A DNA stretch of 64,000 nucleotides from positions 1,860,001 through 1,924,000 of the forward strand of contig NZ_CP058579.1 of assembly GCF_013402875.1 (NCBI RefSeq), given 5' to 3'. This stretch comes from Halorarum salinum (GTDB taxonomy: Archaea; Halobacteriota; Halobacteria; Halobacteriales; Haloferacaceae). The notes below the pieces were generated by a model that saw nothing but the letters and a program-made list of their open reading frames with translations, did not search any database and was not told the DNA's origin. The position numbers were made by a program, and so were the translations under genes. Shown here in pieces: positions 6,968-9,594 of this stretch (positions are counted from its first letter, which is position 1; every line of letters begins with the position of its first letter).

Positions 6968-7417
6968 TCACGTAACGGTGTACTCAGATTCGACCCTCCC
7001 GGTCAGTTCGTCGGGAACGAGCCGGTAGAACTCGAACGCGACCTCGCGCAGCGGCGCGTGGAAGATGTCGACGAGCGGGATGTCGACCCGGTCTAGCCCC
7101 TCCAGCGTCTCGGTGGCGATCCCTTCGGAACGGACCCCCTCCAGCCGGCCGCGCGCCACGACGCTTCGCCAGCCCTCCTCCTCGCCGTAGGTCACGAACG
7201 TGACGGGCCGTCCCTCCAGGTCGCCCTTGGCCCCCTCGTCCCCGTCGGCGAGCCGGAAGTAGAACGTCGCCTCGGTCGCGTCGTAGCCGTACGACACCGG
7301 GACGGCGTGTGGCGGCTCGTCAGCCGCCGTCGACAGCGATATCACGCCGGTTCCGCCGTCCCCGAGGAACGCGTCTCGCTCCTCCTCGTCCATCTCGACG
7401 GGGCTGTCCTCGCTCAT
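6968..7417 (-). CDS. Pyridoxamine 5'-phosphate oxidase-fold (split-barrel flavin-binding) protein
   Basis: The start is the ATG at 7417 (MSEDSPVEMDEEE); the frame upstream is not haloarchaeal in composition. The 149-residue product follows the PNPOx-like layout: GTGVISLSTAADEPPHAVPVSYGY, then a FYFRLADG strand, GRPVTFVTYGEE, and the WRSVVARGRLEGV strand. These small split-barrels bind FMN, F420 or heme, and several act in stress responses. Rv3129 of the DosR regulon is of this fold. The C-terminal third (HAPLREVAFEFYRLVPDELTGR) is typical of haloarchaeal members. The substrate is unknown. Confidence 0.82.
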   Translation of the reverse strand: MSEDSPVEMDEEERDAFLGDGGTGVISLSTAADEPPHAVPVSYGYDATEATFYFRLADGDEGAKGDLEGRPVTFVTYGEEEGWRSVVARGRLEGVRSEGIATETLEGLDRVDIPLVDIFHAPLREVAFEFYRLVPDELTGRVESEYTVT

Positions 7418-7572: not shown

Positions 7573-7606
7573 CTCGTCGACGCCGGTCACTCGTCGACGC
7601 CGGTCT
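7573..7606. repeat. 17-base tandem duplication at the 3' end of the ATPase/UspA chimera
   Basis: Two adjacent 17-base units (7573-7589 and 7590-7606) read CTCGTCGACGCCGGTC plus one variable base. The second unit covers the last codons and stop of the chimeric gene, so the duplication extends past the stop. It looks like a replication-slippage product. Confidence 0.75.
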
Positions 7607-8120
7607 TCACGACGAGCGAGGGACGGTCGGTCAGCCGGATGACGCGGTCGGTGACGCTCCCGAGGAGGCTCCGATACTCCGCGGGGCGGCGTCTCGTCCC
7701 GAGGACGATCAGGTCGACGTCGCGTGTCTCCCCGTCGCGGACGACCGTCGCCCGCGTCCGGATGAGTTGCTGGAGCGCCCGGCAGCTGCGTTCGGCCTGC
7801 CACTCCTGGGCCCTGCCGACGATCGCGTTCACCAGCAGCACCGCCGCGATGAACGCGGCGTCGGTCCCCTCGCCGATGGCGAGCGAGACGACCGCGGCGA
7901 GCACGAGCACGTAGATGAGCGGGTCCTTGAACTGGCGGAGGAGGATCGTCCACCACACGACCGGCTTCGCCCTCGGAAGGCGGTTCGGGCCGTGTTCCGA
8001 GAGCCGGCTCCGGGCCTCCTCGGTCGAGAGGCCGTCGGGATCGGTTTCGAACGCGTCGTGGATCCGGTCGATCCCCTCGGCGTACCAGTCGACCGCGTCC
8101 GGGGCGGCGGGAACGGCCAT
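7587..8120 (-). pseudogene. Chimera: P-type ATPase N-terminus fused to UspA C-terminus
   Basis: This open frame of 177 codons joins two unrelated proteins. Residues 1 to about 134 are the N-terminal domain and first membrane hairpin of a P-type cation ATPase (VDWYAEGIDRI, LSEHGPNRL, two hydrophobic helices, AQEWQAERS, TVVRDGETRDV), parallel to the intact pump at 3333. From about residue 135 the frame continues as the last 40 residues of a universal stress protein (DLIVLGTRRRP, then LLGSVTDRVIRL). The last Gly of the UspA G-x2-G motif is Arg. It most likely arose by an in-frame deletion between neighbouring ATPase and uspA genes. Neither half can work as in its parent. Confidence 0.85.
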
Positions 8121-8334
8121 CGGATACGGAAACCACGGCCGGATCGGACTTGGTGGCCGGTGGCGGGTGAGGTACGGAAAACGGCTCGCCACGAGTGGGG
8201 ACGGACGGCCCGACGGCGCGTTCCGCGTCGGTGCGTGGTCGACCCGAACCCGGGCTCGGACCGGGACGACGGGCGCCGGTTCGTCGACGCGGTCGGACGA
8301 TTGGTCCTGCTGCACCCCGCCCCCAGGCCACGAC

Positions 8335-9594
8335 TCACACGAACACGGCGAACAGGATGCCGACGACCGAGACGGCCCCGAGGACCGCCGTCACGAGGAT
8401 GGCGAGTCGACGGGGCCCGAGGAGCCACGCGAGCCCGGCCTTCACGAGGGTGTTCGCGATCGCCCCGACGACGATCCCCGTCGCCGCGACGTCCGTGGAG
8501 ACGGAGCCGTCCGCGGCGAGTCTGCTCAGCGTGAGCGTGATGGCGTCCACGTCGGCGAGCCCCGAGACGAACGCCGTGGCGTAGACGCCCGACGGGCCCA
8601 GCCGCGTGTTTGCGAGCTCCGAGACGAGCAGGACCACGGCGAAGACGGCCCCGAAGAACAGCGCCGGTCGCAGGCGAAACGGGTTCTCGACCTCGGTCCC
8701 GGAGTCGACGCCCGTCCGCGCTGTCGCCCGCCAGTAGACGACTGCGGCGACGACGGCGCCGAACGCGGTCATCGCACCGAGCGGGACGGCGACGTGGGGG
8801 AGCAGCGCACGGTTGATCACCGCGACCTCGACGAGCGCCCGGGGGAACATCACGATCGACGCGACGACCGTGGCGAACGCGTACATCCGCGAGAGCGTCG
8901 GCGCCTCGCTCGCCCGCTCGGCCATCGAGACCGTCGTCGCCGTCGAGGAGACGAACCCGCCCAGCACGCCCGTCAGCGCGATGCCGCGCTCGGCGCCGAC
9001 GGCCCGGCTCAGCGCGTACGCGAGGAAGCTCAGCCCGGTGACGAACACGACCATGAGCCAGACGAACCGCGGGTTCAGTCCGAACAGGACGTCGAGTTCG
9101 CGGTCAGGCAACACCGGGAGGACGACCAGCACGACGAGGACGAACTTGACCGAGGCGCGGCGCTCGCGCTCGTCGACCCGGTCGGCGAACCCGTGGATCG
9201 TCCCCTTCGCGGAGAGGAGCGCCGTGACGGCGCCGGCGACGATGATGGCGATGACGGCCCCCCGCTCGGAGTGGGTCGTCAGCGCGCCGAGAACGACGAC
9301 GAGCAGCGCGGCGGTCAGCGTCGTGAGCCCGAGGTCGCGTTCGAGCCAGACCTTCCCGGCGTACGCCACCGTCAGCGGGACCGCGAGCGCGGCCAGAACG
9401 ACGGGGAGCATCGCCGGAAAGAACGCCCCCACGAGCGCCCCGAGGAGCGCGAACAGCGGGAACGTGCGACTCCCCGCGAACGTCCCGGCCGACTCGCTCC
9501 CCTCCCGCTCCAACCCGATGAGCGCGCCGATCCCGAACGCTATCGCGACGCGGACCACCACCAGCCCGAACGGGTCGGCGACCGGGTCGATCAC
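8335..9594 (-). CDS. MgtC/SapB-DUF4010 integral membrane protein
   Basis: The 419-residue, GTG-started protein is almost wholly hydrophobic, with about 11-12 membrane segments. The N-terminal 130 residues match the MgtC/SapB domain (RVAIAFGIGALIGLERE, then GSRTFPLFALLGALVG). The rest matches DUF4010, including GVLGGFVSSTATTVSMAERA and YATAFVSGLADVDAITLTL. Family members are linked to Mg2+ homeostasis and intracellular stress, but transport has not been shown for this two-domain class. It diverges from the acetate-CoA ligase at 9708, and about 110 bases hold both promoters. Confidence 0.9.
   Translation of the reverse strand: MIDPVADPFGLVVVRVAIAFGIGALIGLEREGSESAGTFAGSRTFPLFALLGALVGAFFPAMLPVVLAALAVPLTVAYAGKVWLERDLGLTTLTAALLVVVLGALTTHSERGAVIAIIVAGAVTALLSAKGTIHGFADRVDERERRASVKFVLVVLVVLPVLPDRELDVLFGLNPRFVWLMVVFVTGLSFLAYALSRAVGAERGIALTGVLGGFVSSTATTVSMAERASEAPTLSRMYAFATVVASIVMFPRALVEVAVINRALLPHVAVPLGAMTAFGAVVAAVVYWRATARTGVDSGTEVENPFRLRPALFFGAVFAVVLLVSELANTRLGPSGVYATAFVSGLADVDAITLTLSRLAADGSVSTDVAATGIVVGAIANTLVKAGLAWLLGPRRLAILVTAVLGAVSVVGILFAVFV

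Follow-up and report, generated by a model that had tools for sequence, protein, structure and literature searches.

The window analysed here is a stretch of 64,000 nucleotides from Halorarum salinum, whose genome assembly (4.26 Mb, two contigs) is 99.83% complete. A 177-aa open reading frame without an internal stop was found in which the N-terminus of a P-type ATPase is joined to the C-terminus of a UspA protein (Table 1). Pfam matched Cation_ATPase_N (PF00690) to residues 12-79 (E 1.6e-21) and Usp (PF00582) to residues 131-172 (E 8e-9), the latter over profile columns 100-141 of 141 only, and both matches lie in one and the same frame. Wrong frames are also mostly open in the surrounding GC-rich DNA, so the open frame alone is weak evidence for a chimera; the homology of both halves in one frame, as read from the sequence, constitutes strong evidence. 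The original prediction for this locus, an in-frame fusion with no stop or frameshift at a joint near 7718, was confirmed: the frame from 8120 to 7587 is open throughout, and the predicted position falls inside the mapped joint. Residues 1-134 had been assigned to the ATPase and the last 40 to UspA; both halves stood, with mapped extents of 1-136 and 134-177.

Table 1. Features of the chimeric locus and of a related chimera in a second archaeon. Coordinates are positions in the window unless a locus is named.
Feature	Coordinates	Strand	Remarks
Chimeric ORF	7587..8120	minus	177 aa; ATG at 8120, TGA at 7587-7589
ATPase-derived part, residues 1-136	7713..8120	minus	cytosolic N-terminus, TM1-TM2 hairpin, first two actuator-domain strands
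Joint, codons 134-136 GAC GTC GAC (DVD)	7713..7721	minus	9 bases common to both parental families, in phase
UspA-derived tail, residues 134-177	7590..7721	minus	corresponds to residues 106-149 of 149-aa UspA subfamily
Upstream region	8121..8163	minus	inherited ungapped from ATPase gene
Intact P2-type ATPase paralogue, 852 aa	3333..5891	plus	41% identical to intact orthologue of lost pump
PNPOx-like (Pyridox_ox_2) gene	6968..7417	minus	also near intact ATPase in G361, G363
MgtC/DUF4010 membrane protein	8335..9594	minus	also within ~10 kb of intact ATPase in G361, G363
G294 ATPase N-terminus/HATPase_c chimera	L192:3347-4396 (G294:C8)	minus	350-aa frame; PF02518 E 6.6e-22

The first 136 residues have their orthologues in a P2-type cation ATPase that is intact in Haloarcula, Halomicrobium and relatives, where it occupies frames of ~900-1000 aa (~910 typical). 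Identity to the close intact orthologues is 66-71%, and the ATPase relatives align to residues 1-136 of the chimera and then stop. The two features that mark the N-terminus of a P2-type ATPase, Cation_ATPase_N and TM1-TM2, were both recovered by Pfam, hydropathy and a structure model. The E1-E2 actuator, the DKTGT site, the HAD core and TM3-TM10 are missing from the chimera, which gave no match to PF00122, PF00702 or PF00689. Because the phosphorylation site is missing, the chimera cannot pump.

The UspA relatives align from D134 to the end of the chimera at 65-82% identity. Their subtype is 149 aa long and carries the signature GTKRRPxEYRxLLGSVTDRVLRLT, and 20 of the 22 invariant UspA columns are kept in the tail (the exceptions are K143R and L161I). 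A complete Usp alpha/beta domain of ~140 residues is not present in the chimera, and the nucleotide-binding motif G-2X-G-9X-G(S/T) is not found in the tail, which reads G141-T-R-R144...G154-S155 with the second Gly absent. The same Gly is absent from 22 intact UspA relatives (GTKRR). On sequence grounds, the tail is unlikely to bind a nucleotide, since only the last quarter of Usp is left and the parent subtype itself is without the second glycine. The original prediction of a partial nucleotide-binding tail is therefore doubtful; the parents read GTKRRP, and an alignment-based structure model gave the tail no confident fold (pLDDT 31-49).

In the alignment, the hand-over from ATPase to UspA occurs at Asp-Val-Asp, residues 134-136, with zero residues gained or lost. 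The DNA of the chimera at this point reads CGC GAC GTC GAC CTG ATC GTC CTC GGG, that of the intact ATPase of Haloarcula pellucida (L079) reads CGC GAC GTC GAC GGG, and that of two intact UspA genes (L155 and L157) reads GCG GAC GTC GAC CTG CTC GTC CTC GGG. The 9-mer GACGTCGAC was located exactly where the joint lies, and with an identical codon phase, in the intact ATPases of L079 and G343 (L121) and in the UspA genes of L155 and L157, all of which are relatives of the two parents and not the true parental DNA. The two parents of the chimera thus have the same orientation and meet at a short stretch of identity without extra bases, and an in-phase shared 9-mer at the joint is what a microhomology-mediated deletion would be expected to leave. 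In Haloferax volcanii, the deletions that result from inaccurate end joining have microhomologies of 3-5 bp at their edges (PMC2700283), and strong self-targeting in the same species yields deletions by microhomology-mediated end joining (PMC7521656).

We consider it probable that the chimera is a non-functional, recent scar of such a deletion. The partners would have been a complete P2-type ATPase gene and a uspA gene of the same orientation, recombined or end-joined at the shared word. At least ~2.6 kb would have been removed, comprising ATPase codons 137 to ~910 and UspA codons 1 to ~105, a size that follows from the codons now lacking in the two genes. The frame would have stayed open because the word stands in the same codon phase in both.

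The intervening halves are missing from the genome. The rest of the lost ATPase was absent elsewhere, the best match being the 41% identical paralogue in the window, and a full UspA of the parent subtype was likewise absent, with the best remaining copy 46% identical. These results bear on whether the assembly or the sequencing skipped real sequence between two intact genes; an assembly deletion, the refuting case named with the original prediction, found nothing to favour it. The locus was seen in a single assembly, and its neighbouring genes cannot be cross-checked in the genus: both congeners are without close MgtC or PNPOx orthologues and are therefore uninformative as an empty or intact site. 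Nine shared bases, however, would be far too few to collapse an assembly, and neither of the two contigs holds a leftover ATPase or UspA half, so we regard an artefact as very unlikely.

A protein search for the fusion in other genomes, which the original prediction had proposed, covered 3 genomes of the genus, 148 of the family, 392 of the order and 146 of a second family (f4); these sets overlap and total ~500. The same ATPase-UspA fusion was found in none of the other genomes searched, nor in a plasmid collection. Close ATPase matches in the same genome searches ended at residues 136-141, and the longer weak matches among those listed were ordinary full-length ATPases or unannotated records.

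In both G361 and G363, orthologues of the PNPOx-like and the MgtC gene lie within ~10 kb of the intact ATPase, which places the chimera in a known ATPase neighbourhood. The fusion had been attributed beforehand to a deletion between adjacent genes that kept the frame open, with the suggestion that relatives might retain the intact ATPase-uspA pair. The in-frame deletion joint was borne out. The adjacency was not, since none of the sampled relatives, including G361 and G363, has an intact ATPase with the parent UspA subtype downstream; UspA genes of other subtypes are found upstream of, or convergent with, the intact ATPase. Because the pair is never side by side in the sampled relatives, the deletion is one that we infer, and more than two gene halves may be lost. 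The same result would suit a different route, in which an insertion or transposition carried a stray 3' piece of uspA next to a truncated ATPase; the product would still be a relic. Against this route, the joint lies exactly where the in-phase shared word is, without added bases, and we find the route improbable; a microhomology-mediated deletion is the explanation that we prefer. As a separate observation, the intact ATPase of many haloarchaea has one or two same-strand UspA genes of another subtype immediately upstream, a conserved pairing seen at loci L082, L085, L086, L118, L120 and L198.

The codon phase of words common to different genes was compared in two sets of ORFs. In the first set, 26 window ORFs picked by composition that may include a few wrong frames, the shared words were in the same codon phase in 76% of cases for 9 bases and 80% for 10 bases. 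The second set was stricter, with 15 ORFs checked only for an open frame, and gave 83% and 87%, respectively. Codon-shuffled genes gave 79% (9 bases) and 83% (10 bases), while base-shuffled genes gave 32% and 30%. Codon usage alone accounts for most of the phase bias. Because codon usage puts the microhomologies in phase, a fusion here would be in frame as a rule and not by luck: where such words are used for a deletion, genes on the same strand should be joined in frame at well above the one-in-three rate. For GC-rich haloarchaea this implies a general leaning towards in-frame joints, and annotators should expect in-frame chimeras and should not take an unbroken frame as proof of function.

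Upstream of the start codon, 13 close ATPase orthologues have TAAGT at about -32, a position that we take to suit the TATA box of a leaderless haloarchaeal transcript. The chimera has CAAGT (8148-8153 = CCAAGT), and from the position of the change its promoter may be weakened. A sigma-70 promoter scan of this region was set aside as not applicable to archaea. The coding sequence showed no undue decay. The two halves have a third-position GC of 0.94 and 0.93, and the chimera keeps each of the 48 columns that do not vary among 18 ATPase orthologues. The branch length of the ATPase part (0.20) is ordinary in a 136-residue tree that is poorly resolved, and accelerated evolution was not seen in either the invariant columns or the branch length. 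The undecayed sequence of both halves fits a recent event or selection.

The membrane hairpin that had been predicted as the product was upheld: TM1-TM2 is retained according to hydropathy, and the alignment-based model places helices at residues 67-82 and 85-119, in a block with pLDDT of about 63-79. A single-sequence model was discarded (pLDDT 44). The good Foldseek matches were P-type ATPases only, for the N-terminal part, with a best E of 5e-4. Any protein made from the frame would consist of a membrane hairpin of two helices followed by a short tail, unfolded or partly folded. With the promoter-like element altered, a function for the chimera appears unlikely.

An alternative is a functional new gene, in which the hairpin would anchor a small protein in the membrane and the tail or helices would modulate a partner, such as the undamaged ATPase paralogue whose gene lies 1.7 kb away, or form pairs with monomers of Usp. 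In its favour, the start and stop are intact and the invariant residues of the ATPase half are all kept, and haloarchaeal transporters (APC, FNT and SSS families) that carry a UspA domain or have one next to them are common and well known (PMC3102087). Against this, the fusion was found in one genome only and shows none of the conservation across the sampled genomes that would characterise a functional fusion; the quarter of the Usp domain that is left has no confident fold, its parent subtype is without the canonical nucleotide-binding glycine, and the promoter-like element has changed. We hold a functional gene to be unlikely.

A functional gene would also draw support from G294, where the same ATPase breaks off after ~residue 165 and continues in frame as the HATPase_c domain of a histidine kinase. 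Judged by its sequence, this chimera represents a separate, comparable fusion event in a second archaeon, with a cytoplasmic signalling domain as the partner of the same ATPase N-terminus. Plain breakage of this ATPase was also found. The copy in G217 (L134, G217:C5) is frameshifted, and that in G449 (L198, G449:C23) is cut at ~codon 131, five codons from the joint position, and contains TAG stops; G449 also carries an intact copy. Short ATPase frames in G092, G046 and G082 were rejected as fusions, as they are frameshifts or run into unrelated DNA. Two fusions set beside two plain wrecks present no excess that demands function, and the second fusion of the same kind in G294 makes the chimera real but ordinary. 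These breaks may mark a hotspot where the actuator domain begins.

The two fusions could also be read as a repeated capture of the ATPase hairpin, along with its promoter and start, as a membrane anchor for the C-termini of cytoplasmic stress and signalling proteins, with some of the resulting chimeras becoming working regulators. Codon-phased microhomology would help, in that a deletion in a GC-rich haloarchaeon would normally leave the joined genes in frame, with UspA as the captured part here and the histidine-kinase ATPase domain in G294. This we regard as quite improbable. As the probable scar of a microhomology-mediated deletion, the chimera is probably unimportant as a gene; as an event, it is a clean case of the birth of a chimeric frame. 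The kind of event itself is already known, and the new parts worth keeping are the codon-phase bias and the G294 chimera.

Compared with the P2-type ATPases of Haloarcula and Halomicrobium (HAD-IC family), the chimera shares the N-terminus and the upstream region but is without the catalytic core, that is, the rest of the actuator with TGES, DKTGT, the N domain and TM3-TM10. Its tail is like the last 44 residues of the 149-aa haloarchaeal Usp subtype (PF00582), whereas the first ~105 residues, which make up most of the alpha/beta domain, are lacking. The G294 chimera likewise combines an ATPase N-terminus cut in the actuator domain with the C-terminal part of a cytoplasmic protein; its break lies ~30 codons later, and its partner, the HATPase_c domain, is nearly complete. 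The known UspA-transporter fusions resemble the chimera in carrying a membrane transporter part and a Usp part on one polypeptide, but they unite whole transporters with whole Usp domains and occur in many genomes (PMC3102087), whereas the chimera described here unites fragments of both and is unique among the sampled genomes.
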